From NCBI RefSeq assembly GCF_001570425.1, contig NZ_BCSX01000011.1, positions 124,001 to 188,000 of the forward strand: 64,000 nt of DNA, in the 5' to 3' direction. Position 1 is the stretch's first letter; each line of letters begins with the position of its first letter. The translations under genes were made by a program, and so were the position numbers. Below are positions 3,357 to 28,126 of the stretch, one piece after another. The notes under the pieces were generated by a model, which worked only from the letters and a program-made list of their open reading frames with translations, did no database searches and was not told the DNA's origin. Source of the stretch: Mycolicibacterium brisbanense. Lineage in GTDB: Bacteria > Actinomycetota > Actinomycetes > Mycobacteriales > Mycobacteriaceae.

Positions 3357-4304
3357 GTGAGCCGGGACGTTGTGCTGGATCCGACCATCGCGCGGCTGGT
3401 CGATGCGATGGCGATTCCACCGACCCTCGGACAACTGGGCCCGCAGGACGGCAGGCTGGCCCTGCGCGAAGCGCAGCAGAGCTCCATCGAGCAGCCCGGA
3501 ACTGCGGCGCGGTTCCACACCGCCCCTGTCGGCCCTTCCGACCTGGTGGGGTTCTGGGTGGTGCGGCCGCTCGGCGTGGCAGGACCGTTGCCTGCGGTCG
3601 TGTACATCCACGGCGGCCGTTTCATGTTCGGTGACGCCGATACCCACGGTCGTATCGTCGGGGCCATCGCGACGAGTTGCGCCGCGGCGGTCATCGTGCC
3701 CGAATACAGCCGCACTCCCGAAGCCCGCCACCCGGTCGCGTTGGAAGAGTGCTACGCGACCCTGCTGTGGATCCGGGACAACGCCGAGTCGATCTCTATC
3801 GATCCGAAAGCCATTGCACTGGCCGGAGATTGTGCGGGAGCCAACATCGCCGCGGCCATGAGTATGGTGTGCAAAACCCGTGGCGGACCCCGGATTCGAG
3901 CTCAGCTGCTGTACTACCCGCCGACCGACGCGCGGTGCGAGTATCCGTCCCACGAGATGTTCGCCGAGGATTATCTGCTGGGCAGCGACGAGCAGGCCTG
4001 GTACTGGGAGCACTACTGTGACGGCGATCCGGACGATCCCACCGTCTCCCCGGTACGTGCCGCACCGGCGGATCTCGCGGGCCTGCCCCCGACCCTGATC
4101 GTCACAGCCGAGGCCGATGTCGTGCGCGACGAAGGTGAGGCATTCGCAGCTCTGCTGCGCGCGGCAGGGGTGCCGGTGACCTGCACCCGCTACTTGGGGA
4201 CCGTGCATGACTTCGTGGTGCTCAGTCAGTTGAGCCAAACACCTTCGGCCCGTGCGGCACTGGATCAAGGTATCCGGTTCCTCAGCCAGGCGATACGTCC
4301 GTGA
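3357..4304 (+). CDS. HSL-type alpha/beta-hydrolase with Cys in the nucleophile position
   Basis: The GTG at 3357 follows AGGGAGGACGTC, giving 315 residues. The hormone-sensitive-lipase fold is shown by the oxyanion motif HGGR (His85) and by an acid and histidine in the right places (Asp254 in EADVVRDEGE, His284 in TVHDF). The nucleophile elbow, normally GDSAGG, reads GDCAGA with Cys159 in place of serine. The enzyme may therefore be a thiol hydrolase, an altered-chemistry enzyme, or weakly active. The stop overlaps the start of the LuxR gene (GTGA at 4301-4304), so the two are translationally coupled. A paralogue at 7102-8052 lies on the other side of the regulator. Confidence 0.85.
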   Translation: MSRDVVLDPTIARLVDAMAIPPTLGQLGPQDGRLALREAQQSSIEQPGTAARFHTAPVGPSDLVGFWVVRPLGVAGPLPAVVYIHGGRFMFGDADTHGRIVGAIATSCAAAVIVPEYSRTPEARHPVALEECYATLLWIRDNAESISIDPKAIALAGDCAGANIAAAMSMVCKTRGGPRIRAQLLYYPPTDARCEYPSHEMFAEDYLLGSDEQAWYWEHYCDGDPDDPTVSPVRAAPADLAGLPPTLIVTAEADVVRDEGEAFAALLRAAGVPVTCTRYLGTVHDFVVLSQLSQTPSARAALDQGIRFLSQAIRP

Positions 4305-7096
4305 CGACCATCCCGGCCCTACCCGTCGTCGGCCGCAATAAGCTCACCCGCCTCGTGACCGCCGTCGCATCGGGTGCAGGCGCCGCACCGCGGGCGATTA
4401 TTTTGGTCGGCGAACCGGGCATCGGCAAGTCGACGCTGTTGAGGCACGCCATGGCCGAGGTGACGGCACCGGCACGCGTGCTGTTCGCCGGCGGCACGGA
4501 GCCCGACCAGGTTCCTCCGTTCACCGCACTGGCCGAACTGATCCGTCCCATCATCGAGCGGAGCGCCGAACTCCCAGCCGAATTCCGAAGTGCTCTGTCG
4601 GACGTGGTGGCCGTGCAGGCCGATTCGGCGACGCACGGACCGGCGTTGATCCAGCAGGCCGTGCTGGCGCTGCTGGCAGCCGCGGCGGCTCAACAACCGC
4701 TGGTGCTGGTGCTCGACGATTTCGACCGGTTCGAACCGGATTCGCGTCAGGTGCTCAGCTATGTGATCGGCCGGGTACCGCATCTGCCCGTCCGCATGCT
4801 GATGAGTGCCCGGCGGGTGGACCTGTTGCGTGGCATCGACCGATCGGTGGTGGTGGTCGAGGTCACACCGCTGTCTGATGCGGAGTCGGCCGAGGTGATC
4901 GAGGCGCAGTCCGTGGTGCCCGACGCCAGCGTGCGAGGGGAGATCATCCGCTGGTCCGGGGGAAATCCGTTGGCGCTCATCGAGTCCGCGCGGTTCTACG
5001 GCAAGTCCGGTTCGGCGAGCTTCCGGGGTAACCACATGGTAGGGAGCGGGTTCGCGCACACGCTGTTCGCCGCGCAGCTGCGTGAGCTGCCTGCGGACGC
5101 CCGCAGGCTCGCGCTGTTCGCTGCTGCGGGGGCCGGCTATGAAACCATCGACACCATCACCGCCGCAGCAGGTTTCGGCGGGGAGCTGGCCCGTTGGGAG
5201 CCGGCGATCGCGGCCGGCCTGGTGATGATCGGTGACGATCGCCGGGTGCGATTCAGTCACCCTCTGCTGCGCACGGTGGCCTACAGCGAAGGTGATCTCG
5301 ACGAGCGGCGTGCCGCCCATGTGGCGCTCGCCGCGTCACCGCATCTCGACGTGTCCTGTCGGGCCTGGCATCTCGCGGCCGCTGCCTCAGGGCCTGACGA
5401 GATGGTCGCCACACTACTGGAGCAAGGTGCCGAACAGTCGCGGCTGCGTGGTGGTTATCTGGAGGTCGCGCGGGCGATGCAGCGCGCCGGTGAGCTGAGT
5501 CCGGGCGCCGCCGACGCCGCCCGCCGGTTCACGCTCGCTTCGGCGGCAGCCAACTTCGGCGGTGATCCGGCCTGGGCACTGGCATTGAGTGCGAGTGCCG
5601 TCCGTAGTTCGAGCGATCCCGAGGTCGTCGGGCACGCAGCGCTGACCCGGGCCTCGATCCTCGTGCAATCCGCCCGGCCGTCAGAAGCTGCCGACCTGAT
5701 CCGAAGTACCCTCGACGGATCACGCCCGGCCAATACCCAGCTGCGGCTGTCGTTGATGTACGTCGCGGCGTCGGCCGCGTACTACTCCGGTGAACTTGCG
5801 CATCGAACGCATCTGCGGCGTTGGCTCGACGAGACCGCTGACGACATTCTCGACGAGAGTGCCTTCCCCACACCCTTACCCGCTGAGTTGGGGCCGCTGC
5901 AGCGTGCCTACATCGCGATGTACGCCGACAGCGCGGCGACGGCACACACCCGGCCCGCACCGTGGGATCGGCGCTGGCTGCAACCGATGTCCGCGCCGGT
6001 CGAACCGTACCGCCGGCTCATCGTCGGGGCGATGGCCTACGCCACCGAAGAGAGTTCGCTGGCTGTCACCGAGCTCCGGGAGGGGATCGACCAGCTCAAG
6101 TCGGCGGGCGGTCTGCGGGGATTCACCTACGCGATGGCCGCCCTGGGCTGGGCACTGCACGACACCGGCCGCTGGGCGGAACTCCGGAGATTGCTCGATG
6201 AGACCGAGACCCTCTGCGCGGTATACGATCTGGCCCTGCTCCATGCCGAGAGCAGTGCCGTGCGGGCGCATCTGCTCGCCTGCCTCGGCGACACCACTGG
6301 CTCGGAAGCGGCATTGCGGGCGGCGGCCCGGGTCGGAGCCGGCGACGGCGCCGCCGCGACAGCCGTCTCGCTTCTCCGCGCCGGCGGTTGGAATGCTTTG
6401 GCCCGCGGCGATTTTCACGACGCATACCGCACGTTTCGGCAGTTGTTCGACGCTGACGGCGAGCCGACGCACTTCGTGCTGTCCCATCGCGGGATCGCCG
6501 ATCTGGCCTGGTCGGGCGCGCGCAGCGGGCAAGCGGACGAGGTACGGCCGCTGGTCGTGTCGATCGGACGGCAGATGGGATCGAATCCCCCTGTGAGACT
6601 GAGACTTCTGCGCCACCAGGCACTCGCACTGACCACGTCGACTCATCTCGCCGAGAGGCACTACCGGCTGGCTGTGTTCGATCCGGCGGGAGACCAGTGG
6701 CCGATGGAGCGTGCCCGCGCCCGGCTCCACTACGGGGAGTGGCTGCGCCGGGTCCGGCGGCCCGCCGAGGCGCGCACTCAGCTGACCGCGGCGCTGGAGG
6801 TGTTCGACCGGCTCGGCGCTACGCCGTTCGTCCAGATCGCGCAGGCCGAGCTGCGGGCCTCCGGAGTCGCGGCGTCGTCGTCCACCATGGCGGTCGAAGG
6901 GCTGGATTCCCTCACGGCTCAGGAGCGTCAGATCGTCGCCATGGCTGCGTCCGGTCTCACCAACCGGGAGATCGGTCAGCGACTGAATCTGTCACCCCGG
7001 ACCATCGCCTCGCATCTGTACAACGTGTATCCCAAGCTCGGCGTCAGCCGTCGCCACCAGCTCCGCGACATCGTCGCTCGCGACGTACCCGGCTGA
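4301..7096 (+). CDS. LuxR-family (LAL/MalT-like) transcriptional regulator with N-terminal ATPase
   Basis: This 931-residue protein has a P-loop GEPGIGKS (37-44), a Walker B-like LVLVLDDFDRFE near residue 145, a long helical middle consistent with TPR-like repeats, and a C-terminal LuxR helix-turn-helix (LTAQERQIVAMAASGLTNRE onward, about 870-925). That is the architecture of large ATP-binding LuxR regulators, which are usually effector-dependent activators. It is coupled to the upstream hydrolase by a 4-bp overlap and converges on the second hydrolase. Its central place among four copies of a 20-bp palindrome makes it the likeliest protein to bind that motif; this is inference. Confidence 0.9.
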   Translation: MTTIPALPVVGRNKLTRLVTAVASGAGAAPRAIILVGEPGIGKSTLLRHAMAEVTAPARVLFAGGTEPDQVPPFTALAELIRPIIERSAELPAEFRSALSDVVAVQADSATHGPALIQQAVLALLAAAAAQQPLVLVLDDFDRFEPDSRQVLSYVIGRVPHLPVRMLMSARRVDLLRGIDRSVVVVEVTPLSDAESAEVIEAQSVVPDASVRGEIIRWSGGNPLALIESARFYGKSGSASFRGNHMVGSGFAHTLFAAQLRELPADARRLALFAAAGAGYETIDTITAAAGFGGELARWEPAIAAGLVMIGDDRRVRFSHPLLRTVAYSEGDLDERRAAHVALAASPHLDVSCRAWHLAAAASGPDEMVATLLEQGAEQSRLRGGYLEVARAMQRAGELSPGAADAARRFTLASAAANFGGDPAWALALSASAVRSSSDPEVVGHAALTRASILVQSARPSEAADLIRSTLDGSRPANTQLRLSLMYVAASAAYYSGELAHRTHLRRWLDETADDILDESAFPTPLPAELGPLQRAYIAMYADSAATAHTRPAPWDRRWLQPMSAPVEPYRRLIVGAMAYATEESSLAVTELREGIDQLKSAGGLRGFTYAMAALGWALHDTGRWAELRRLLDETETLCAVYDLALLHAESSAVRAHLLACLGDTTGSEAALRAAARVGAGDGAAATAVSLLRAGGWNALARGDFHDAYRTFRQLFDADGEPTHFVLSHRGIADLAWSGARSGQADEVRPLVVSIGRQMGSNPPVRLRLLRHQALALTTSTHLAERHYRLAVFDPAGDQWPMERARARLHYGEWLRRVRRPAEARTQLTAALEVFDRLGATPFVQIAQAELRASGVAASSSTMAVEGLDSLTAQERQIVAMAASGLTNREIGQRLNLSPRTIASHLYNVYPKLGVSRRHQLRDIVARDVPG

Positions 7097-7106
7097 GCGG
7101 CTCAGC
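7092..7106. terminator. Short stem-loop containing both convergent stop codons
   Basis: GCTGAG-CGG-CTCAGC is a perfect 6-bp stem with a 3-nt loop. It contains the TGA of the LuxR gene (7094-7096) and the stop of the minus-strand hydrolase (7102-7104). It lacks a U-tract, so its role as a terminator is tentative. Confidence 0.4.
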
Positions 7107-8052
7107 TTCCGAACGCTGTGGTCAACGCCGACGTTGCCTGTGCCATGGCGGCGCGGGCGGGACTGGACCGGCACAGCGCGTCGAGCACCACGAATCCGTG
7201 GATGACCGAGCCGTAGCGGACTGCCGTTGTCGGAGCACCCGCGGCAAACAGCTTCGCGGCGAACGCCTCACCCTCGTCGCGCACCACGTCCGCCTCCGCG
7301 GTGACGATCAAAGACGCTGGGAAGCGGGCGAGTTCGTCCATGCTGGTATGCAGAGGGGAGACGGCGGGATGGCTGCGGTTCACACCATCGGGCGCGTACT
7401 GATCCCAGCACCACCGCATGGTGGTGCTGTGCAGGTGGTATCCCCGACTGAATGTGCGGTGTGATTCGGTGTCGCAGGACGCGTCGGTGATGGGACAGAA
7501 TCCGATGAACTGTCTGACAGTCATGTCCCTGTGCCGCAGGCAGTTCAATGTCAGGGCGATGGCCATCGTGGCGCCGACGCCGTCACCGCCGACGGCGACT
7601 CTGGTGGTGTCGAGCCCGTGGCGGGCGCCCTGGGCGAACACCCACCGTGCGACGGCGCAAATCTGATTGAGTGCAACGGGGTAGCGGGCCTCGGGTGCCA
7701 GAGCGTATTCGGGAAACACCACGGCGGCACCGGTGTGGGCCGCCAGCTCGCCCACCAGGCGGTCATGGCTGCGGGCGCCGCCGAACACCCATCCGCCGCC
7801 GTGCACGTAGATGAGCACCGGAAGTCGGCCACCGAGGTTCGGTGGCAAGACAATTCGGAGGGGTACCCGTCCCGCCGCGCTCGCGACGGTGAACCAAACA
7901 TCCGACACCACAGCGGGTTGGTGCTGCCAGCCGTCGACGATCCGCCGACCCACGGCCGGCTCGACCGAATCCAGTTGCGGCAAGGCGGCCGTCTTCGCCA
8001 AGAAAGCCTGCGTCGCCGGTTCGAGAACCGTACTGCGAGGATTGACGATCAA
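7102..8052 (-). CDS. HSL-type alpha/beta-hydrolase lacking the catalytic serine
   Basis: A TTG start at 8052 preceded by GAGGGGGACGCCG gives 316 residues. The canonical oxyanion motif HGGGW (His84) and the acid/His pair (Asp255 in EADVVRDEGE, His285 in SVIHGF) are present. The elbow reads GGDGVGA, so Gly158 stands where the nucleophilic Ser should be. It is clearly paralogous to the protein at 3357-4304, whose elbow is GDCAGA. Loss of the nucleophile argues against ordinary esterase activity; it could be a binding protein, a lyase-like enzyme or a partner of its paralogue. Operator copy 3 lies 53 bp upstream. Confidence 0.82.
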   Translation of the reverse strand: MIVNPRSTVLEPATQAFLAKTAALPQLDSVEPAVGRRIVDGWQHQPAVVSDVWFTVASAAGRVPLRIVLPPNLGGRLPVLIYVHGGGWVFGGARSHDRLVGELAAHTGAAVVFPEYALAPEARYPVALNQICAVARWVFAQGARHGLDTTRVAVGGDGVGATMAIALTLNCLRHRDMTVRQFIGFCPITDASCDTESHRTFSRGYHLHSTTMRWCWDQYAPDGVNRSHPAVSPLHTSMDELARFPASLIVTAEADVVRDEGEAFAAKLFAAGAPTTAVRYGSVIHGFVVLDALCRSSPARAAMAQATSALTTAFGS

Positions 8053-8179: not shown

Positions 8180-10123
8180 CTAGTGGCTGCTCGGGTCGGT
8201 GAGGATCTCGATCAGGGCGGGTCCGGGGTGGTGGAGGGCCTCGGTGATCGCCGAGCTCAGATCTTGTGCATCGGTGACGCGTCGGCCGTAGGCGCCGCAG
8301 TCTCGGGCGTAAGCGGCGAAGTTCGGATTGTGCAGGGAGGTCTGCCACACCGCGTATTCGGCGCTGCGTTGTTCCTCGCTGATCTTGGCGAGTTCGCCGT
8401 TGTTGAGCAGGATGTGGGTGATGTTCATGCCGTACTTCACCGCGGTGGTGAAATCGGCGAGGTACTGACCGAAGCCACCGTCGCCGGTGATCGCCACGAT
8501 GGGACGGTCCGGTGCGGCCGCCCAGGCCCCCATCGCCGCGGGAAATCCGAATCCGATGGATCCGAGATAGCCCGACATGAGCACCGACTGTTCGGTGGTC
8601 TCGAAGTACCGGCCGAACGAATACGCGTGATTGCCCACGTCGACGGTGAGGACCGCATTCTGCGGCACCAGGCGGCTGAGTTCCTCGAATACGGTGGCGG
8701 CCGCGACCCGCCCGCCCGGCGTCTTGACGGCGCGGCGGCCCTTTTCGGCGCGCCAAACAGCCCACCGCTCAGCCACTTCCGGGCGCTGATCCACCAGCGC
8801 CGGGTTTGAGCGAAGCCCGTCGAGTAGGGCGGCGGCCGTGACACCCACATCGCCGAGCAGCGGAACCTCCACCGGACGGAAACGGCCCAGCATCATGGGG
8901 TCGGTGTCGACCTGGATGATCGGCTTGTACGGCGAGATCCCGGTGTGGTTGGAGAACGAGGCGCCGAACACCAGCAGCAGGTCGGCCTTGTTCATCATCC
9001 AGGAGGCCACCGGTGTGCCGGAGCGCCCCAGTACGCCGCAGGCGAGCGGGTGAGCGTCCGAGATCTGCCCTTTGGCCTTGAAGGTGGTCAGTACCGGTGC
9101 ATTCAGCCGTTCGGCGAGGGCGACGACGGCAGGCATGTCGAACTTCGCGCCGGCACCGACGACGACCAGTGGCCTGGTCGCGCTTTGCACCACCTCGAGG
9201 GCCTGCTCCAGTGCCGACGCGGGCGGTGCGACCCGAAGGTCGGGTAGGCGGCCACCGGGTCCGGACGCCAACGCGTCCGGGGCTTCGAGAATCTGTACCT
9301 CGTCGGGCAGCACGAGATGGCCGACGCCGCGTTCGAGGATGGCGTGTTTGAGGGCCATGGTCATCAGTTCGGCGTGGTCGGAGCCGGACCGCACCATCGA
9401 CGAGTACACGGCGACATCGGCGAACGCCGCAAGCAGGTCGATGTCCTGGAACGCGCCCTTGCCGGCCACCGATGAATCCACGTTGCCTGAGAGGGCCAGC
9501 ACCGGGGCACGATCGGATTTCGCGTCGTACAGACCCGTCAGCAAGTTGGTGGACCCGGGCCCGGCGATACCGAAGCAGGCGGCAGGCCTGCCGGTCAGCT
9601 TGCCGTAGGCGGCTGCCGCAAACGCCGCGGCGCCCTCGTGTCGGATGCCGAAATACCGTAGCTTGCCTGCTGTTTCCGCGCGGTGCATGGCTTCGGCGAT
9701 ACCGAGATTCGAGTGGCCGACCATGCCGAAGACGGTGTCGACGCCCCAGTTGGTCATGGTCTCCACCAGCACGTCGCTGACCGTGCGCGGATGTGGAGCC
9801 GGCGGCGGGGTGCCGACGTAGATGCCGTCTTCGCGGACCTCCACCGGATAGGTGCGCACGTTGAAGTCGGGACCGCCCGCGGCCTCACCGGTGAACGGAT
9901 CGAAGTCGAAACCGTGCCAGGGGCAACGGATCTTGTCGTTCTCTAGGGTGCCCTGCCCGAGTGGGCCGCCCTGATGCGGACAGCGGTTGTCGATGGCGCC
10001 GTAGCGGCCGTCGAGTCGGGTCAGCGCCACGGTCTTGAGCCCGACCGGACACATCGTCACCTCACCCTCGTCGAGGTCGTCGGCGTCAACGGCCTTGTGC
10101 CAGGCGAGGTCCTGTTCGGTCAC
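8180..10123 (-). CDS. Rieske-ThDP fusion: Rieske [2Fe-2S] domain joined to acetolactate-synthase-like enzyme
   Basis: Of 647 residues, the first ~105 form a Rieske ferredoxin-like domain with ligands Cys48, His50, Cys67 and His70 (CPH...CPWH). From about residue 115 a complete thiamine-diphosphate enzyme follows: RHEGAAAF near residue 160 supplies the cofactor-activating Glu, a central domain follows, and GDGGFGQ...LLNNGEL near residues 545-575 is the ThDP/Mg motif. ThDP enzymes of this group decarboxylate 2-oxo acids and may form C-C bonds. A fused Rieske centre suggests electron transfer, as in an oxidative 2-oxo acid reaction, but this is inference. Its GTG start overlaps the stop of the upstream gene (GTGA), so both are one operon. 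Confidence 0.88.
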   Translation of the reverse strand: MTEQDLAWHKAVDADDLDEGEVTMCPVGLKTVALTRLDGRYGAIDNRCPHQGGPLGQGTLENDKIRCPWHGFDFDPFTGEAAGGPDFNVRTYPVEVREDGIYVGTPPPAPHPRTVSDVLVETMTNWGVDTVFGMVGHSNLGIAEAMHRAETAGKLRYFGIRHEGAAAFAAAAYGKLTGRPAACFGIAGPGSTNLLTGLYDAKSDRAPVLALSGNVDSSVAGKGAFQDIDLLAAFADVAVYSSMVRSGSDHAELMTMALKHAILERGVGHLVLPDEVQILEAPDALASGPGGRLPDLRVAPPASALEQALEVVQSATRPLVVVGAGAKFDMPAVVALAERLNAPVLTTFKAKGQISDAHPLACGVLGRSGTPVASWMMNKADLLLVFGASFSNHTGISPYKPIIQVDTDPMMLGRFRPVEVPLLGDVGVTAAALLDGLRSNPALVDQRPEVAERWAVWRAEKGRRAVKTPGGRVAAATVFEELSRLVPQNAVLTVDVGNHAYSFGRYFETTEQSVLMSGYLGSIGFGFPAAMGAWAAAPDRPIVAITGDGGFGQYLADFTTAVKYGMNITHILLNNGELAKISEEQRSAEYAVWQTSLHNPNFAAYARDCGAYGRRVTDAQDLSSAITEALHHPGPALIEILTDPSSH

Positions 10124-11742
10124 AGTGGTGTGGCTCCTGCATACGGGACTCCGCTGAGGTAGGCGAAGTCGCGGTCAAAGGTGACGAGGTCGTCGAGGGC
10201 GAAGTCTGCCAGGCGTCGGTGGCCGCACGCGCGCGCGAGTACCACCATCAGGTCGACGGCGGCGCGCAGGAAGCGATCCAGGCGCTGCGCGGCGGCATGA
10301 GACGGCAGGCGCGACCGCAGCCGCGGGTCCTGGGTGGCGATACCAGCCGGGCAGGTATTCGTGTTGCAGGCCCGCATGCCGACACATCCGATGGCCTGCA
10401 GTGCCGCATTGGACAGGCCGATCGCATCGGCCCCCAGCGCCAAGGCCTTCACCATGTCGGCAGGGGTGCGGATGCCGCCGGTGACCGCGAGGGTGACATG
10501 GTGGGCGTGGGCGCTGTCCAGGTGCCGCCGGGCCCGGGCCAACGCCGGAATGGTGGGCACCGAGATGTTGTCGCGGAAGATCGTCGGGGCAGCGCCGGTA
10601 CCGCCGCCGCGGCCGTCGACGATGAGGTAGTCCACCCCGATCTCGAGTGCGGCGTCGATATCACGCTCGATGTGTTGCGCACTCATCTTGTACCCCACCG
10701 GGATACCGCCGGAGACGTCACGAACCTGGGCGGCGAAGTCCTTGAACTGCTGCAGCGAGGTCCAGTCCGGGAACCGGGCCGGCGAGATCGCGGCGGTGCC
10801 CGGCGCAAGGTCGCGGACCTCGGCGATCCGGCCCACCACCTTGGCGCCCGGAAGGTGCCCGCCGGTACCGGTCTTGGCGCCCTGCCCGCCCTTGAAATGG
10901 AAGGCCTGGACCTTGCGTACGTGGTCGAAACTCCAGCCGAACCGACCGGATGCCAGTTCGTAGAAGTACCTCGAATTCGCCTGCTGCTCTTCGGGCAACA
11001 TGCCGCCCTCACCCGAGCAGATCCCGGTCCCGGCGAGTTCTGCACCCGCCGCCAGTGCGGTCTTGGCCTCTTCGGACAGAGCACCGAAGCTCATATCACT
11101 GACGAACAACGGGATGTCGAGCACCAGCGGGCGCAGCGCGTTCGGGCCGATCACCGTTTGCGTGCTCACCGGCTCGTCGTCGAGCAGCGGCAGTCGCGCC
11201 AGCTGTGCGGTGAGCAGCTGGATCGAATCCCACGACGGCAGTTCACCGCGCGGCACACCCATCGCCGCGGTAGGTCCGTGCCCGCTGCTCAAACCGTGCG
11301 CGGCCCAGTCGTGGATCTGCGTGACGAACGGCTCCTCGGCGGTGTCGCTCGGTTTGATCCACTTGCCCAGATAACCGTCGTCAGCGTAGGTCTGCGGGTT
11401 CGCCCGCGCGAAGTCGGCAATGGCCGATTCGTCGAGATACACCGAGTCGTCGGACACCCACGCCGGGAAGGTGGCCAGCGCCACCGCCGGGTTGACCGGC
11501 GATACGCCGGACTCGATCTCGTAGCGCCAGCCATGGACACCGCACACCACGAGATCACCCTCGACGCGGCCGTCGGCCATCAGCGCTCCGCGGTGGGCGC
11601 AGCGACCGTACAACGCCGACACCTGCTGCCCGCGACGCACCAGCAGCACGTCGACACCAGCGGCGACCACCGCATGCGGAGTGTTCTCGGGTAGTTCAGA
11701 GAGCGAAGCGACACGCAATGCGGTCACCGGTTCAGTTGTCAC
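10120..11742 (-). CDS. Rieske-FMN fusion: Rieske domain joined to glutamate-synthase-like FMN domain
   Basis: The 540-residue product starts at a GTG (11742) with GGTGGAG upstream. The N-terminal ~105 residues are a Rieske domain with Cys48, His50, Cys67 and His70 (CAH...CGVH), the same positions as in the neighbouring ThDP fusion. The rest is the FMN-binding barrel of glutamate synthase: GGQGAKTGTGGHLPG, GRGGGTGAAP, and CNTNTCPAGIATQDP, which resembles the Fe-S cysteine region. There is no amidotransferase domain. It probably channels electrons to reduce or aminate a substrate; which is unknown. Operator copy 4 is 46 bp upstream. It overlaps the downstream ThDP gene by 4 bp. Confidence 0.88.
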   Translation of the reverse strand: MTTEPVTALRVASLSELPENTPHAVVAAGVDVLLVRRGQQVSALYGRCAHRGALMADGRVEGDLVVCGVHGWRYEIESGVSPVNPAVALATFPAWVSDDSVYLDESAIADFARANPQTYADDGYLGKWIKPSDTAEEPFVTQIHDWAAHGLSSGHGPTAAMGVPRGELPSWDSIQLLTAQLARLPLLDDEPVSTQTVIGPNALRPLVLDIPLFVSDMSFGALSEEAKTALAAGAELAGTGICSGEGGMLPEEQQANSRYFYELASGRFGWSFDHVRKVQAFHFKGGQGAKTGTGGHLPGAKVVGRIAEVRDLAPGTAAISPARFPDWTSLQQFKDFAAQVRDVSGGIPVGYKMSAQHIERDIDAALEIGVDYLIVDGRGGGTGAAPTIFRDNISVPTIPALARARRHLDSAHAHHVTLAVTGGIRTPADMVKALALGADAIGLSNAALQAIGCVGMRACNTNTCPAGIATQDPRLRSRLPSHAAAQRLDRFLRAAVDLMVVLARACGHRRLADFALDDLVTFDRDFAYLSGVPYAGATPL

Positions 11743-20783: not shown

Positions 20784-21956
<1,173 letters not shown>

Positions 21957-21957
21957 C

Positions 21958-21971
21958 TAGAACACGTTTCA
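21958..21971. promoter_or_regulatory. KstR operator, fadA5/cyp125
   Basis: TAGAACACGTTTCA fits the KstR consensus TnnAACnnGTTnnA. It lies in the divergent fadA5-cyp125 promoter, where KstR binds in mycobacteria. Cholesterol-derived metabolites relieve KstR repression. Confidence 0.85.
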
Positions 21972-22100
21972 TTAGTCTGACAAGCGGCGATGCCGTGGTG
22001 CCTTTTATCTGCGGTGAAGGCATGTTTCAATGGTCTGCAAGACGTACTAGACGGATTTGTCTCGCTGCCCGCCATGTACTGGAGTTTCAAGGAGATGAGC

Positions 22101-23351
22101 ATGCCCTGCCCGAACCTTCCCCACGGCTTCGACCCCCTGGATGCGGAGTTGAATCTCAAAGGTCTGCCCGTCGCCGAGCTCGCCGAGCTCCGTAAGTCCG
22201 CGCCGGTCCACTGGGTGGACGTCCCGGGCGGTACGGGCGGGTTCGGCGACAAGGGCTACTGGCTGGTCACCCGGCACGCCGATGTCAAAGAGGTGTCGAA
22301 GCGCAACGACGTGTTCGGTAGCTCACCCGACGGGGCCATCCCGGTCTGGCCGCAGGAGATGACGCGCGAAGCGGTGGACCTGCAACGTGCCGTGCTGCTC
22401 AACATGGATGCTCCGCAGCACACCCGCCTGCGCAAGATCATCTCCCGTGGTTTCACCCCGCGGGCCATCGGCCGGCTGGAGGCCGAACTGCGCGAGCGGG
22501 CCCAGAAGATCGCCGAGGCCGCGGCATCCGCGGAGGCCGGCGACTTCGTCGAGCAGGTGTCGTGCGAGCTGCCGCTGCAGGCCATCGCCGGTCTGCTCGG
22601 GGTTCCGCAGGACGACCGGGACAAGCTCTTCCGCTGGTCCAACGAGATGACCGCGGGCGAGGATCCCGAATACGCCGACGTCGATCCGGCGATGTCCTCA
22701 TTCGAGCTCATCACCTACGCCATGAAGATGGCCGAGGAGCGCGCCAACAACCCCACCGACGACATCGTCACGCAGCTGATTCAGGCCGATATCGACGGTG
22801 AGAAGCTCTCCGACGACGAGTTCGGCTTCTTCGTGGTGATGCTCGCGGTCGCGGGCAACGAGACCACCCGCAACTCGATCACGCACGGCATGATCGCCTT
22901 CTCGCAGCACCCCGAACAGTGGGAGCTGTACAAGAAGGATCGCCCGGACACTGCCGCCGACGAGATCGTCCGTTGGGCCACACCGGTTTCGGCGTTCCAG
23001 CGCACCGCGCTGGAGGATGTCGAGCTGGGTGGGGTGCAGATCAAGAAGGGGCAGCGCGTCGTGATGTCCTACCGCTCGGCCAACTTCGACGACGAGGTGT
23101 TCGAGAATCCCCACACCTTCGACATCCTGCGTAACCCCAACCCGCACGTCGGTTTCGGTGGTACCGGGGCGCACTACTGCATCGGCGCAAACCTGGCCCG
23201 GATGACCATCAATCTGATCTTCAACGCTGTCGCCGACCACATGCCCGACCTCAAGCCGCTCGGCCAGCCCGAGCGGCTGAAGTCCGGCTGGCTCAACGGC
23301 ATCAAGCACTGGCAGGTCGACTACACGGGTAAATGCCCGGTGGCTCACTAA
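22101..23351 (+). CDS. cyp125: Steroid C26/27-monooxygenase CYP125
   Basis: The ATG at 22101 has AAGGAG six bases upstream; an ATG two codons earlier abuts the ribosome site and is less likely. The 416-residue P450 has the oxygen-activation helix motif AGNETTR and the heme loop FGGTGAHYCIG with Cys360 as axial ligand. CYP125 oxidises the terminal side-chain carbon of cholesterol and cholestenone, starting side-chain degradation. It heads the operon cyp125-fadE28-fadE29-chsH2-chsH1-ltp2, under the KstR site at 21958. Confidence 0.92.
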   Translation: MPCPNLPHGFDPLDAELNLKGLPVAELAELRKSAPVHWVDVPGGTGGFGDKGYWLVTRHADVKEVSKRNDVFGSSPDGAIPVWPQEMTREAVDLQRAVLLNMDAPQHTRLRKIISRGFTPRAIGRLEAELRERAQKIAEAAASAEAGDFVEQVSCELPLQAIAGLLGVPQDDRDKLFRWSNEMTAGEDPEYADVDPAMSSFELITYAMKMAEERANNPTDDIVTQLIQADIDGEKLSDDEFGFFVVMLAVAGNETTRNSITHGMIAFSQHPEQWELYKKDRPDTAADEIVRWATPVSAFQRTALEDVELGGVQIKKGQRVVMSYRSANFDDEVFENPHTFDILRNPNPHVGFGGTGAHYCIGANLARMTINLIFNAVADHMPDLKPLGQPERLKSGWLNGIKHWQVDYTGKCPVAH

Positions 23352-23371
23352 CGCAGACTCGAGGAGAACGG

Positions 23372-24376
23372 GTGGATTTCACACCGAACCCGGAGCAGCA
23401 GGCCGTCGCCGACGTGGTGACGTCCGTGCTGGAGCGGGACAACAGTTGGGACGCACTGGTTTCCGGCGGCGTGACTGCGCTTGCGGTGCCTGAGCGGCTC
23501 GGCGGTGACGGCCTCGGTCTACTGGAGGTCGCCACCGCCCTGACCGAGATCGGCAGGCACGGCACCATCAGCCCCGCGCTGGCCACCCTCGGATTGGGTC
23601 TGGTCCCGCTGCTGGACCTGGCTTCCGAGCCGCAGCAGGACCGCTACCTGGCCGGCGTCGCCGGGGGAGCCGTCCTGTCGGCGGCGCTCAACGAGCCCGG
23701 TACCCAGCTGCCCGAACGGCCTGCCGTCACGTATGCGGACGGGAAGCTCTCCGGTACGAAAGTCGCTGTGCCCTACGCTGAATCGGCCCAGTGGCTGGTG
23801 GTCACCGCCGATAGCGGCGTGGTCGTGGTGGCCCCGAACGCCGCCGGTGTCACCCTGACAAAGACGCCGACCGCCAACGGTTCCGACGAATACGTCGTGA
23901 CGTTCGCCGACGTGGCGATTGGCGCCGAGGATGTCCTGCAGGGCGCGTCCGCTCACCGGGTGAACCAGCTCGCGTTGGCGACGACGGGCGCGTTCGCGGC
24001 GGGGCTGGTGGCAGGTGCGCTGCGGCTCACCGCCGATTACGTCGCCACCCGCGAGCAGTTCGGTCGCCCGTTGTCTACCTTCCAGACCGTCGCCGCCCAG
24101 CTCTCGGAGGTCTACATCGCCTCGCGGACCATCGATCTGGTGTCCACCTCGGCGACCTGGCTGTTGTCGGAAGGGCTCGACGCCGACGACGACCTCGCCA
24201 TCCTCGGCTACTGGCTGACCTCACAGGCGCCTCCGGCGATGCGCACCTGTCACCATCTGCACGGTGGCATGGGCATGGACATCACCTATCCGATGGACCG
24301 CTACTACTCGTCGATCAAGGACCTGGCCCGGTCGCTGGGCGGTCCGCTGCGCCGGCTGGACCTGGTGGGAGCGTAA
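23372..24376 (+). CDS. fadE28: Acyl-CoA dehydrogenase subunit ChsE1 (FadE28)
   Basis: A GTG at 23372 preceded by GAGGAGAACG gives 334 residues of the short, divergent acyl-CoA dehydrogenase type. In M. tuberculosis FadE28 pairs with FadE29 as the alpha2beta2 enzyme ChsE1-ChsE2 that dehydrogenates the 2'-propanoate side chain of the steroid CoA ester. The C-terminal HHLHGGMGMDITYP matches the family. It follows cyp125 by 20 bp and precedes fadE29 by 2 bp. Confidence 0.9.
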   Translation: MDFTPNPEQQAVADVVTSVLERDNSWDALVSGGVTALAVPERLGGDGLGLLEVATALTEIGRHGTISPALATLGLGLVPLLDLASEPQQDRYLAGVAGGAVLSAALNEPGTQLPERPAVTYADGKLSGTKVAVPYAESAQWLVVTADSGVVVVAPNAAGVTLTKTPTANGSDEYVVTFADVAIGAEDVLQGASAHRVNQLALATTGAFAAGLVAGALRLTADYVATREQFGRPLSTFQTVAAQLSEVYIASRTIDLVSTSATWLLSEGLDADDDLAILGYWLTSQAPPAMRTCHHLHGGMGMDITYPMDRYYSSIKDLARSLGGPLRRLDLVGA

Positions 24377-24378
24377 AC

Positions 24379-25542
24379 ATGTTCATTGAGCTGACGCCCG
24401 AACAGCGGGCACTGCAAGCCGAAATGCGGCAATACTTCTCGACCCTCATCACGCCGGACGAGGCCGCGGCGATGGAATCCGATCGGCACAACGAGGCCTA
24501 CCGCGCGGTGATCAAGCGCATGGGCTCCGACGGCAAGCTGGGCGTCGGCTGGCCCAAGGAATACGGCGGGCTGGGCTTCGGTCCCATCGAGCAGCAGATC
24601 TTCGTCAACGAGGCCAACCGCGCCGACGTCCCGCTGCCGCTGGTCACCCTGCAGACCGTGGGCCCGACCCTGCAGGTGTACGGCACCGAGGAACAGAAGA
24701 AGAAGTTCCTGCCCGGAATCCTTTCCGGTGACATCCATTTCGCGATCGGCTACTCCGAGCCGGACGCAGGCACAGACCTGGCGTCGCTGCGGACGACGGC
24801 CGTCAAGCATGGCGACGAGTACATCGTCAACGGCCAGAAGATGTGGACCACGGGCGCGCACGATGCCGACTACATCTGGCTGGCCTGCCGCACCGATCCC
24901 ACCGCCGCCAAGCACAAGGGCATCTCGATCCTCATCGTCGACACCAAGGATCCGGGATACTCGTGGACCCCGATCATCCTGTCCGACGGTGCGCACCACA
25001 CCAACGCGACGTACTACAACGACGTGCACGTGCCCGCCGACATGCTGGTCGGGGAGGAGAACGGCGGGTGGAAGCTCATCACCACCCAGCTCAACCACGA
25101 GCGGGTCAGCCTCGGGCCCGCCGGCCGTGTCGCGGGCATCTACGACCACGTCCGCGCCTGGGCATCCAAGCCCGGCTCAGACGGTGTCACGCCCATCGAG
25201 CATGACGACGCTCGGCATCTGCTCGGCCAGATCAAGGCCATCTGGCGGATCAACGAGCTGCTCAACTGGCAGGTCGCGGCGTCGGGCGAGACCATCGCGG
25301 TCGCCGACGCCGCCGCGACCAAGGTGTTCTCCACCGAGCGCATCCAAGAGGTGGGCCGGCTCGCCGAAGAACTCGTGGGCCGCTACGGCAACCCGGCCGA
25401 TCCCGAGACCGCCGAGCTGCTGGAGTGGCTGGACAAGATGACCAAGCGCAACCTGGTGATCACCTTCGGCGGCGGGGTCAACGAGGTGATGCGCGAGATG
25501 ATCGCCGCGTCCGGACTGAAGGTGCCGAGGGTCCCCAGGTGA
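24379..25542 (+). CDS. fadE29: Acyl-CoA dehydrogenase subunit ChsE2 (FadE29)
   Basis: The 387-residue protein has standard acyl-CoA dehydrogenase motifs: GWPKEYGG, GYSEPDAGTDLASLRTTA, NGQKMWTTGAHDADYIWL, and a C-terminal ITFGGGVNEVMREMIA. It partners FadE28 in the alpha2beta2 ChsE1-ChsE2 dehydrogenase acting on the steroid propanoyl-CoA side chain. It is 2 bp after fadE28 and 78 bp before chsH2; that gap holds a notable stem-loop. Confidence 0.92.
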   Translation: MFIELTPEQRALQAEMRQYFSTLITPDEAAAMESDRHNEAYRAVIKRMGSDGKLGVGWPKEYGGLGFGPIEQQIFVNEANRADVPLPLVTLQTVGPTLQVYGTEEQKKKFLPGILSGDIHFAIGYSEPDAGTDLASLRTTAVKHGDEYIVNGQKMWTTGAHDADYIWLACRTDPTAAKHKGISILIVDTKDPGYSWTPIILSDGAHHTNATYYNDVHVPADMLVGEENGGWKLITTQLNHERVSLGPAGRVAGIYDHVRAWASKPGSDGVTPIEHDDARHLLGQIKAIWRINELLNWQVAASGETIAVADAAATKVFSTERIQEVGRLAEELVGRYGNPADPETAELLEWLDKMTKRNLVITFGGGVNEVMREMIAASGLKVPRVPR

Positions 25543-25559
25543 AACCCGCGGCGCCGAAC

Positions 25560-25606
25560 GTGAAGTTGTTGGCGAAGAATCGCCGAAATCTCGCAAACAA
25601 CTTCAC
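25560..25606 (+). repeat. Nested stem-loop between fadE29 and chsH2
   Basis: GTGAAGTTGTT (25560-25570) pairs with AACAACTTCAC (25596-25606), and an inner GGCGA-AGAA-TCGCC stem lies between them. It is the only sizeable gap in an otherwise tightly packed operon and ends a few bases before the chsH2 ribosome site (GAGGAGAG). It may be an mRNA processing or stability element, a weak attenuator, or a dispersed palindromic repeat. Confidence 0.6.
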
Positions 25607-25620
25607 TTTCGAGGAGAGAG

Positions 25621-26571
25621 ATGTCTGACCTGCAGGCAGCAGTCGAGGAGATCAAGGCCGCCGGCCGGTCCAAGCCGCGGGCCGGCCGGGATCCGGTGAA
25701 CCAGGCCATGATTCACCACTGGGTGGATGCCATCGGGGACAAGAACCCGATTTACGTCGACGATGCGGCAGCCAAGGCCGCCGGGCATCCCGGCATTGTC
25801 GCGCCGCCGGCCATGATCCAGGTGTGGACCATGGCGGGGCTGGGGCAGGGGCGGCCGGACGACGATCCGCTGAGTCAGATGATGAAGTTGTTCGACGACG
25901 CAGGCTATGTCGGCGTGGTCGCGACCAACTGCGAGCAGACCTATCACCGCTACTTGCAGCCCGGTGAAGAAGTCACGATCGCCGCCGAGCTGACCGACGT
26001 GGTCGGCCCCAAGCAGACCGCCCTGGGCGAGGGCTACTTCATCAACCAGAAGATCACCTGGCAGGTCGGTGACGAGGATGTCGCCGAAATGCTGTGGCGC
26101 ATCATGAAATTCCGGCCGGCCGAGAAGGAGCAGAGCTCCGGGGTGCCCGATGATCTCGACCCCGACAAGCTCATGCGGCCTGCGTCGTCGAAGGACACCA
26201 AGTTCTTCTGGGACGGCGTCAACGCCCACGAGTTGCGCATCCAGAAGCGTCCGGACGGATCGTTGCAGCACCCGCCGGTGCCCGCGGTGTGGCAAGGCAA
26301 AGACGTGCCAACGGATTACGTCGTGGCCTCCGGCAACGGCACGGTGTTCAGCTACGTCGTGCACCACGCACCCAAGGTGCCGGGACGCAGCCTGCCGTTC
26401 GTCATCGCACTCGTCGAACTCGAGGAAGGCGTGCGGATGCTCGGCGAGTTGCGCGGTGTCGAGCCCACCCAGGTCAAGATTGGAATGCCCGTGCGCGCAA
26501 CCTTTATCGACTTCCCCGACAGCGAGGTCAGCCCGGCGTGGACCCTCTACGCATGGGAGCCGGCCCGATGA
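25621..26571 (+). CDS. chsH2: Steroid enoyl-CoA hydratase subunit ChsH2 (MaoC-DUF35)
   Basis: The 316-residue protein has an N-terminal hotdog (MaoC-like) domain (about 20-170) and a C-terminal DUF35 OB-fold (about 210-316). In M. tuberculosis ChsH2 (Rv3542c) forms the ChsH1-ChsH2 hydratase, and its DUF35 domain docks the aldolase Ltp2. The ATG follows GAGGAGAG. Its stop overlaps the chsH1 start (ATGA). Confidence 0.9.
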   Translation: MSDLQAAVEEIKAAGRSKPRAGRDPVNQAMIHHWVDAIGDKNPIYVDDAAAKAAGHPGIVAPPAMIQVWTMAGLGQGRPDDDPLSQMMKLFDDAGYVGVVATNCEQTYHRYLQPGEEVTIAAELTDVVGPKQTALGEGYFINQKITWQVGDEDVAEMLWRIMKFRPAEKEQSSGVPDDLDPDKLMRPASSKDTKFFWDGVNAHELRIQKRPDGSLQHPPVPAVWQGKDVPTDYVVASGNGTVFSYVVHHAPKVPGRSLPFVIALVELEEGVRMLGELRGVEPTQVKIGMPVRATFIDFPDSEVSPAWTLYAWEPAR

Positions 26572-26969
26572 GCGCGCCGGTGGTAGACGTCGGCACGAAA
26601 CTGCCGGAACTGCAGATCTATGGAGACCCGACCTTCATCGTGTCGACGGCCATCGCCACGCGTGACTACCAGGACGTCCATCACGACCGGGACAAGGCGC
26701 AGGCCAAGGGTTCCAAGGACATCTTCGTCAACATCCTCACCGATACCGGGCTCGTGCAGCGCTATCTCACCGACTGGGCCGGACCGTCGGCGCGGATCAA
26801 GTCCATCGGACTGCGCCTCGGCGTCCCGTGGTACGCCTACGACACCGTCACGTTCCGGGGGGAGATCACCGCGGTGGACGGCGATCGGGTGACCGTGAAA
26901 GTCGTTGGCAGCAACAGTCTCGGTGACCACATCATCGCCACCGCAACACTGACACTGGGGGACAAGTGA
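26568..26969 (+). CDS. chsH1: Steroid enoyl-CoA hydratase subunit ChsH1
   Basis: A 133-residue single-hotdog MaoC-like protein; ATRDYQDVHHDRDKAQAKGS carries the hydratase D-x4-H type motif. It forms the catalytic partner of ChsH2, hydrating the steroid 17-propenoyl-CoA before retro-aldol cleavage. It overlaps chsH2 upstream by 4 bp and ltp2 downstream by 4 bp. Confidence 0.9.
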   Translation: MSAPVVDVGTKLPELQIYGDPTFIVSTAIATRDYQDVHHDRDKAQAKGSKDIFVNILTDTGLVQRYLTDWAGPSARIKSIGLRLGVPWYAYDTVTFRGEITAVDGDRVTVKVVGSNSLGDHIIATATLTLGDK

Positions 26970-28126
26970 CGCTCTCCGGCAAGGCCGCGATCGCCGGTAT
27001 CGGCGCCACCGACTTCTCCAAGAACTCCGGCCGCAGCGAGTTGCGGCTGGCCGCTGAGGCGGTGCTCGACGCACTCGACGATGCCGGGCTGAAGCCTTCG
27101 GACGTCGACGGCCTGGTGACCTTCACGATGGACTCCAACCTGGAGACCGCCGTGGCGCGATCGACGGGTATCGGTGACCTGAAGTTCTTCAGCCAGATCG
27201 GCTACGGCGGTGGTGCCGCTGCCGCGACCGTGCAGCAGGCCGCCCTCGCGGTGGCGACCGGCGTGGCGGAAGTCGTTGTGGCCTACCGAGCTTTCAATGA
27301 GCGCTCGGAATTCCGCTTCGGCCAGGTGATGACCGGACTGACCGTCAACGCCGACTCGCGCGGCGTCGAGTACAGCTGGTCCTACCCGCACGGGCTGAGC
27401 ACACCGGCCGCGTCGGTGGCGATGATCGCTCAGCGTTACATGCACGAATACGGCGCGACGAGTGCCGATTTCGGTGTCGTGTCGGTGGCCGACCGCAAGC
27501 ACGCCGCGAACAACCCCAAGGCGCACTTCTACGGCAAGCCGATCACCATCGAGGATCACCAGAATTCCCGGTGGATCGCCGAGCCGCTGCGGTTGCTGGA
27601 CTGCTGTCAGGAGACCGACGGTGGCGTGGCCATCGTCGTCACCACCCCCGAGCGGGCCAGGGATCTCAAACACCGGCCGGTGACCATCGAGGCCGCGGCC
27701 CAGGGCGCAGGCGCGGACCAGTTCACCATGTACTCCTACTACCGCGACGAACTCGGCCTGCCCGAGATGGGCCTGGTGGGCCGTCAGCTCTGGGAACAGA
27801 GCGGCCTGTCGCCCGCCGACATCCAGACGGCCGTGCTGTACGACCACTTCACGCCGTACACGCTGATCCAGCTGGAGGAGCTCGGCTTCTGCGGTAAGGG
27901 CGAGGCGAAGGACTTCATCGCCGGCGGTGCGATCGAACTCGGCGGTCGATTGCCGATCAACACCCATGGCGGCCAATTGGGGGAGGCCTACATCCACGGC
28001 ATGAACGGCATTGCCGAAGGTGTGCGGCAGTTGCGCGGTACGTCGGTCAATCAGGTCGACAATGTGGAGCATGTGCTGGTCACCGCCGGCACCGGCGTTC
28101 CGACCTCCGGGTTGATCTTGGGCTAA
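26966..28126 (+). CDS. ltp2: Steroid side-chain retro-aldolase Ltp2
   Basis: A GTG start overlapping chsH1 (GTGA) gives 386 residues of the thiolase-like SCP-x fold. SQIGYGGGAAAATVQQAALAV, YDHFTPYTLIQLEELGFCGKG and NTHGGQLGEAYIHGMNGIAE match Ltp2-type aldolases. It cleaves 17-hydroxy steroid propionyl-CoA to androstenedione and propionyl-CoA together with the ChsH2 DUF35 domain. It is the last cholesterol gene before the secreted-protein pair and the glycan island. Confidence 0.92.
   Translation: MTLSGKAAIAGIGATDFSKNSGRSELRLAAEAVLDALDDAGLKPSDVDGLVTFTMDSNLETAVARSTGIGDLKFFSQIGYGGGAAAATVQQAALAVATGVAEVVVAYRAFNERSEFRFGQVMTGLTVNADSRGVEYSWSYPHGLSTPAASVAMIAQRYMHEYGATSADFGVVSVADRKHAANNPKAHFYGKPITIEDHQNSRWIAEPLRLLDCCQETDGGVAIVVTTPERARDLKHRPVTIEAAAQGAGADQFTMYSYYRDELGLPEMGLVGRQLWEQSGLSPADIQTAVLYDHFTPYTLIQLEELGFCGKGEAKDFIAGGAIELGGRLPINTHGGQLGEAYIHGMNGIAEGVRQLRGTSVNQVDNVEHVLVTAGTGVPTSGLILG

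Follow-up and report, generated by a model that had tools for sequence, protein, structure and literature searches.

A Rieske-ThDP and Rieske-GltS gene pair of Mycolicibacterium brisbanense as a candidate Rieske-wired 2-oxo-acid oxidoreductase

The stretch of DNA analysed here, hereafter the window, is a 64,000-nucleotide segment of Mycolicibacterium brisbanense (contig NZ_BCSX01000011.1, positions 124,001 to 188,000), and it carries two overlapping genes whose products each begin with a Rieske domain. In one product (protein 1) this domain is fused to a thiamine diphosphate (ThDP)-dependent core related to pyruvate oxidase, and in the other (protein 2) to the flavin mononucleotide (FMN)-binding domain of glutamate synthase (GltS). 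Based on comparisons of their sequences, we propose that the two proteins form a soluble, Rieske-wired 2-oxo-acid oxidoreductase with an exchangeable flavin partner, a reading to which we assign a probability of roughly one half. In this scheme, ThDP would attack and decarboxylate a 2-oxo acid, and the resulting carbanion/enamine would be oxidised in two one-electron steps via the fused Rieske [2Fe-2S] cluster, with or without flavin adenine dinucleotide (FAD). The Rieske route would thereby replace the O2 or membrane quinone of the known pyruvate oxidases. From there the electrons would reach the partner's Rieske domain and travel through its [3Fe-4S] cluster and FMN, where they may be stored as a pair that the FMN protein would hand to a further acceptor. 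In other lineages, a flavoprotein of the FMN_red family probably replaces the GltS-type partner. A redox-linked reaction on a 2-oxo acid had been suggested in the original prediction, which was made from the DNA letters of the window, and it appears to be the most economical reading of the pair. More tentatively, these proteins could represent a new class of ThDP oxidoreductases, in which enzymes of the pyruvate-oxidase fold empty their electrons into a fused Rieske domain and then into exchangeable partners (Rieske- or CDGSH-GltS, FMN_red or a Rieske cytochrome-b-like membrane protein). Such a class might be an O2-tolerant counterpart of pyruvate:ferredoxin oxidoreductase (PFOR) across many bacterial phyla and haloarchaea.

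The open reading frames (ORFs) and Pfam matches of the window bear out the presence of two Rieske fusions in overlapping genes, as originally described (Table 1). The original prediction had also called for counting how often the two genes adjoin, and their nearness was found to be conserved in the genus, in loci across phyla and on haloarchaeal plasmids. Within the genus, protein 2 (>760 bits) was detected in 13 of 118 genomes and protein 1 (>1200 bits) in the same 13, with the genes adjacent and on the same strand in every case (Fisher p = 1.4e-17, a value that ignores kinship); GltS-domain matches with E-values near 1e-60 to 1e-65 were left out of this count. The protein 2 match of genome G014 spans only residues 5-445, and genome G073 carries another GltS copy close by. 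A sample of 296 genomes from the phylum yielded full-length protein 2 in seven, full-length protein 1 in nine and both in five (Fisher p = 1.4e-7), these counts leaving out four GltS matches near 350 bits and three Rieske-less ThDP matches (40-41% identical). Three of the five genomes with both have the genes adjacent, one has them 475 kb apart and one on separate contigs. Linkage of the fusions in other genomes, as expected in the original prediction, is thus recurrent but not obligatory.

Across phyla, the best 80 of at least 548 confirmed loci were studied, taken from a contig scan that covered 84,980 species with a single genome each. By their record titles, these loci span Actinomycetota, Bacteroidota, Cyanobacteriota, Planctomycetota, Acidobacteriota, Nitrospirota, Myxococcota, Chloroflexota, gammaproteobacteria and others. 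A GltS-type protein is encoded in the same locus in 39 of the 80 (flanks of up to 10 kb; a contig end truncates four of the matches), and 19 of the other 41 genomes have the GltS core elsewhere (E-value 1e-90), three of these matches being partial and two of the CDGSH type. Altogether, both proteins are present somewhere in the genome in 58 of the 80, two of them with the CDGSH-type partner. Three of the four haloarchaeal plasmid records with protein 1 carry both proteins, at 57-59% identity and 1.4 to 17 kb apart; protein 1 occurs alone on plasmids of Haloferax larsenii (the fourth record) and Mycobacteroides. The pairwise-identity matrices of the two proteins from 39 loci (35 genome loci, three plasmids and the window, with GltS pieces shorter than 450 residues left out) are correlated with r = 0.88, and none of 2000 row shuffles reached this value, host kinship being ignored. 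By the genus counts above, the pairing of the two genes is far beyond chance. The Rieske domain (PF00355) was found in every one of the 120 relatives of protein 1 listed among 8000 scored and in 118 of 120 listed relatives of protein 2, the remaining two being 488 residues long. Long ORFs in three loci (L018, L019 and L020) were considered as natural fusions of both proteins and rejected, as the GltS gene is read in a different frame and the portion upstream of it is a shadow ORF.

Protein 1 has the three-domain ThDP fold of the PoxB family together with its conserved Glu and GDG-type motif. Glu163, which we take to be the catalytic Glu of the ThDP family, is present in 86 of 86 covering family sequences and Asp548-Gly549 in 85 of 85. 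Pyruvate oxidase or PoxB came first as the nearest family of this core by NCBIfam, by sequence search against the PDB and by Foldseek, and PoxB was also first in the fold comparison by VIA, though it shared that place with HKA synthase, a ThDP carboligase. The core had been described as acetolactate-synthase-like; that it is a ThDP enzyme holds, and the nearest family is rather PoxB/pyruvate oxidase. Every NCBIfam score listed for protein 1 is far under its cut-off, the best for pyruvate oxidase/PoxB being 386.6 bits against a cut-off of 742 and that for acetolactate synthase (TIGR00118) being 290 bits against 538.35. The four Rieske ligands are present in all 86 ORFs of the protein 1 family, a conservation that holds partly by construction because the locus scan used Rieske motifs as bait; the conservation of the ThDP residues among the scanned loci is unaffected by this bait.

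A comparison with PoxB at the level of residues reveals both retained and replaced positions. Glu50, Phe112-Gln113 and Glu469 of PoxB are kept as Glu163, Phe225-Gln226 and Glu584, respectively. Asp27 and His80 of PoxB correspond to His137 and Asn193, each in 86 of 86 sequences. Phe465 of PoxB is the aromatic residue between ThDP and FAD, and the TPP_enzyme_M domain binds FAD in pyruvate oxidase; in the protein 1 family, Phe465 is replaced by Lys580 in all 85 sequences covering this position, and the family thus lacks this aromatic residue of PoxB. Two Rieske-less ThDP paralogues (in loci L019 and L094; n = 2) have Gly at position 137 and Leu or Met at position 580, and the His137/Lys580 signature, as read from the alignment, goes with the Rieske domain in the sample studied. 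Given this His and Lys in the active site, the substrate could bear an additional polar or anionic group. Residues 112-646 of the model align with residues 2-531 of the 572-residue PoxB chain (PDB identifier 3ey9), and the C-terminal tail of PoxB, which acts at the membrane and quinone, is missing from protein 1. The Rieske domain is therefore a plausible new electron outlet, and the loss of the tail along with the invariant His137 and Lys580 indicates that the substrate may not be plain pyruvate.

Protein 2 matched the GltS structures in the PDB (PDB identifiers 7mfm and 1ea0) with about 134 bits. It retains the motif Cys453/459/464, overlooked in the original prediction, whose C-x5-C-x4-C pattern aligns with that of the [3Fe-4S] site of bacterial GltS. 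In an alignment of 59 distinct rows, among them Vibrio, Monoglobus and the window, all 58 covering sequences keep both this motif and QGAK. Where true GltS has GGQLPG, the protein 2 family reads GGHLPG, with His296 in all 58. Neither a glutaminase nor a GXGXG domain is found among the Pfam matches of the 540-residue protein, which is therefore not a strict glutamate synthase. The four Rieske ligands are present in 51 of the 52 Rieske-type GltS relatives that cover the domain. A GltS relative from a genome with Rieske-ThDP (L101) reads CGVLYW at the last Rieske His, which is either a ligand loss or a sequence error.

The same GltS core is found with other iron domains. A Vibrio plasmid relative (P0241), 56% identical to the window protein, has two CDGSH domains by Pfam, and the two CDGSH-type proteins mentioned above (L111 and L112, identified by motif) come from genomes that carry Rieske-ThDP. 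In Monoglobus (Clostridia; L016:7749-9176), a rubredoxin-like segment accompanies the GltS core, its RUBY_RBDX match of 23.0 bits lying below the cut-off of 26.5. What is exchanged among these GltS proteins is an iron domain (Rieske or CDGSH, and rubredoxin-like at a sub-threshold score), which points to electron transfer.

The flavin partner may itself be exchangeable. Among the 86 examined loci (80 genome loci, five plasmid loci and the window), the GltS core occurs in 43 and an FMN_red flavoprotein in 10, and none has both. Close FMN_red homologues (E-value <1e-60) are present in 6 of the 58 genomes with the GltS core versus 13 of the 22 without it (Fisher p = 1.9e-5); the p-value is 1.0e-4 after adding two weaker matches near 1e-31, and 1.6e-5 after removing five partial or CDGSH-type GltS matches. 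The nine remaining genomes, all metagenome-assembled, have neither the GltS core nor a close FMN_red. Because many of the genomes are metagenome-assembled and kinship is ignored, this anticorrelation is suggestive and not final. We read it as a sign that the two are interchangeable flavin partners, which fits electron transfer better than amination. FMN_red relatives occur also without Rieske-ThDP, and they adjoin pirin and ergothioneine genes. On an Exiguobacterium plasmid (L118), for example, a relative lies near egtB/egtD, haloacid dehalogenase and thiol-redox genes, with no Rieske-ThDP in that stretch.

These observations also bear on other explanations of the pair. The partner could be truly aminating, such that the oxidation of one 2-oxo acid drives the reductive amination of another in a glutamate-synthase-like reaction free of nicotinamide adenine dinucleotide phosphate (NADPH). 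Glutamate synthase carries out such amination chemistry, and the GltS domain with its Cys and QGAK motifs is retained throughout the covering sequences. We nevertheless consider this unlikely, given that no glutaminase or GXGXG domain was seen in protein 2 or in the scanned neighbour proteins (a search that was not exhaustive), that the GGQLPG motif of true GltS is altered by an invariant His, and that 13 genomes have FMN_red instead of the GltS core. It is likewise improbable that the ThDP enzyme acts non-oxidatively, as a decarboxylase or carboligase that its Rieske domain switches by sensing redox state or oxygen. With Lys580 for Phe465 and His137 for Asp27, the active site is indeed unlike that of the known oxidases, and many of the near folds are carboligases, including the one tied with PoxB. 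However, a sensor switch leaves unexplained the second Rieske domain on the FMN protein, the CDGSH swap and the FMN_red anticorrelation.

The two could also be independent redox enzymes held together only by a shared stress regulon or a mobile redox island. The haloarchaeal copies, which are on plasmids, kilobases apart and among genes for mercury reductase, DsrE, pirin and dihydrolipoyl dehydrogenase, would agree with this, as would the pirin and ergothioneine genes next to FMN_red relatives. The overlap of the genes in the window, their adjacency wherever they occur in the genus and their pairing across phyla despite differing other neighbours all argue against it, and so does the tendency of FMN_red to occur where the GltS core is absent; we regard mere co-regulation or co-mobilisation as quite improbable. 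A Rieske-wired oxidoreductase with an exchangeable flavin partner is the reading we prefer.

The original prediction suggested that the two Rieske domains of the window may stem from one module, and it placed the ligands of both at Cys48/His50/Cys67/His70. The identical numbering stands, and the same number for the first Cys (48/48) is seen in one Mycobacteroides pair. In the haloarchaeal pairs, however, the first Rieske Cys is at 56 versus 48 or 49, and the spacing C-x-H-x16-C-x2-H is also found in other Rieske proteins of the organism's own genome (L001, L002 and L005). Equal residue numbering is hence no deep trait and is not conserved outside mycobacteria. The common module itself found no support: 21 of 72 aligned residues are shared, and the domains fall into separate groups in a tree of 58 rows, where ThDP-type, GltS-type and membrane-reductase-type Rieske domains cluster separately (support 77/67, 99/99 and 85/91, respectively). 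A branch with support 93/92 sets the GltS-type and most other own-genome Rieske rows against the ThDP-type and membrane-type. The tree is built on 110 columns, so its deep forks are weak; of its rows, L004_own1 (branch 5.22), which falls inside the ThDP group, probably represents a shadow ORF, and L008_own1 repeats the GltS-type domain of the window. Copying of one Rieske module onto both enzymes is therefore not supported by the tree, a deep-time origin aside.

Table 1. Features of the gene pair, in window coordinates
Feature	Coordinates	Strand	Details
Rieske-ThDP protein gene (protein 1)	8180..10123	-	647 aa, GTG start, pyruvate-oxidase fold (predicted)
Rieske-GltS protein gene (protein 2)	10120..11742	-	540 aa, GTG start, Rieske + glutamate-synthase FMN domain
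4-bp gene overlap GTGA	10120..10123	-	protein 2 stop / protein 1 start
Rieske domain, protein 1 (residues 8-93)	9845..10102	-	Pfam PF00355, E 1.3e-16; ligands Cys48/His50/Cys67/His70
TPP_enzyme_N (residues 114-231)	9431..9784	-	Pfam; contains Glu163 and family-specific His137 (codon 9713-9715)
TPP_enzyme_M (residues 305-433)	8825..9211	-	Pfam
TPP_enzyme_C (residues 495-640)	8204..8641	-	Pfam; GDG...NN motif; Lys580 (codon 8384-8386) where PoxB has Phe465
Rieske domain, protein 2 (residues 10-93)	11464..11715	-	Pfam PF00355, E 4.1e-15
Glu_synthase FMN-barrel PF01645 (residues 193-507)	10222..11166	-	Pfam, E 4.8e-88
[3Fe-4S]-type motif Cys453-x5-Cys459-x4-Cys464	10351..10386	-	aligned with same Cys pattern of bacterial GltS

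Genes in the neighbourhood were counted with cluster profiles over the 86 loci, with the Pfam assignments of the membrane pair and the malic enzyme checked on two examples each. A DUF5996-like protein occurs in 34 loci (its single Pfam match of 20.3 bits being below the cut-off of 25), a Na+/H+ antiporter in 18, DUF427 in eight, malic enzyme in seven, YjeF_N in five, an EgtD-type methyltransferase in four and rhodanese in three. The DUF5996-like protein (L032:6469-7338 and 25 further sequences) has a conserved WPxHFD stretch; its confident model (predicted local distance difference test score, pLDDT, of 92.6) has no recognised match in the PDB, and a search with its alignment against the organism's own genome found nothing. 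A Rieske/ferric-reductase membrane gene pair is present in 13 of the 86 loci. In one of its representatives (L042:7781-9567), a third Rieske fusion joins the Rieske domain to a ferric-reductase-like membrane protein and is followed by a 254-residue protein with no Pfam match. The pair was counted by this 254-residue partner because the full membrane-reductase profile, which matched 33 of the 86 loci, contains the Rieske domain and may cross-hit Rieske proteins. A membrane Rieske protein and a pyruvate-forming malic enzyme as neighbours of the ThDP gene are in keeping with the redox reading, and neither adjoins the pair of the window. On the haloarchaeal plasmids (L009-L012), Rieske-ThDP lies near mercury reductase, DsrE, TauE/SafE, pirin, dihydrolipoyl dehydrogenase or DUF3179 genes.

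Next to the pair, the window encodes a 931-residue LuxR-type AAA regulator with an alpha/beta hydrolase (PF07859) to either side, the two hydrolases being on opposite strands (3357-8052). Farther away (20784-28126), genes that by eye resemble those of thiolase, P450 and acyl-CoA dehydrogenase suggest a lipid or steroid catabolism region. The mycobacterial neighbours (DUF3500, alpha/beta hydrolases, and LuxR and PucR regulators) were considered as pathway clues and set aside, as they show little recurrence and no function follows from them. Of the loci examined, L089 alone has close relatives of the LuxR regulator (75%) and of the hydrolase at 3357-4304 (83%); L052 has a weak LuxR relative (31%) and L019 a DUF3500 relative. 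A scan for promoters and terminators gave no promoter-like and two terminator-like sites, which is not above shuffles.

If the proposal is correct, the oxidation of 2-oxo acids would gain a Rieske outlet beside nicotinamide adenine dinucleotide (NAD; dehydrogenase complexes), ferredoxin (PFOR) and O2 or quinone (pyruvate oxidases). A joint function would fall to widespread genes that now carry the labels 'thiamine pyrophosphate-binding protein' and 'glutamate synthase-related protein'. The fusion of one GltS core to iron domains of unrelated kinds would likewise find an explanation, and what the type 5 CDGSH proteins do could be tested directly.

Among known systems, PoxB of E. coli (PDB identifiers 3eya and 3ey9) and pyruvate oxidase of L. 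plantarum (PDB identifier 1pox) have the same three-domain ThDP fold as protein 1 and are the closest in sequence and the closest, or tied, in structure. Protein 1, at 28% identity, differs from these in adding a Rieske domain and in having no C-terminal tail. The large subunit of glutamate synthase shares with protein 2 the FMN barrel, the C-x5-C-x4-C pattern and QGAK, whereas protein 2 is far shorter and has its electron-carrier domain at the N-terminus. PFOR and 2-oxoacid:ferredoxin oxidoreductase (OFOR) would work alike, in that a ThDP intermediate is oxidised through an iron-sulfur cluster; they belong to another protein family and use [4Fe-4S] clusters, and no domain of the PFOR/OFOR type is found among the Pfam matches of the window pair. 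Cyclohexane-1,2-dione hydrolase (CDH; PDB identifiers 4d5e and 4d5g), a ring-cleaving enzyme not known to have a Rieske domain, is also among the closest known systems.

No description of the pair or of a Rieske-ThDP fusion was found among the papers listed in searches of the open part of PubMed Central (PMC), where subscription journals are mostly uncovered. One such paper (PMC12746152) deals with Rieske and thiamin enzymes that are distinct proteins, and the table of glutamate synthase genes of M. smegmatis in another (PMC4881515) has no gene that could be tied to the protein 2 family. The type 5 CISD proteins, named in 2011, are tandem CDGSH domains fused to the GltS FMN domain, and the passages that describe them mention no ThDP partner (PMC3174974). 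They share the core family with protein 2 and have CDGSH, not Rieske, as the carrier; the window protein, with a Rieske domain and no tandem CDGSH, falls outside type 5 CISD. Fusions of CDGSH domains to glutamate synthase are thus already known, and the pair described here is a variant built of known parts.

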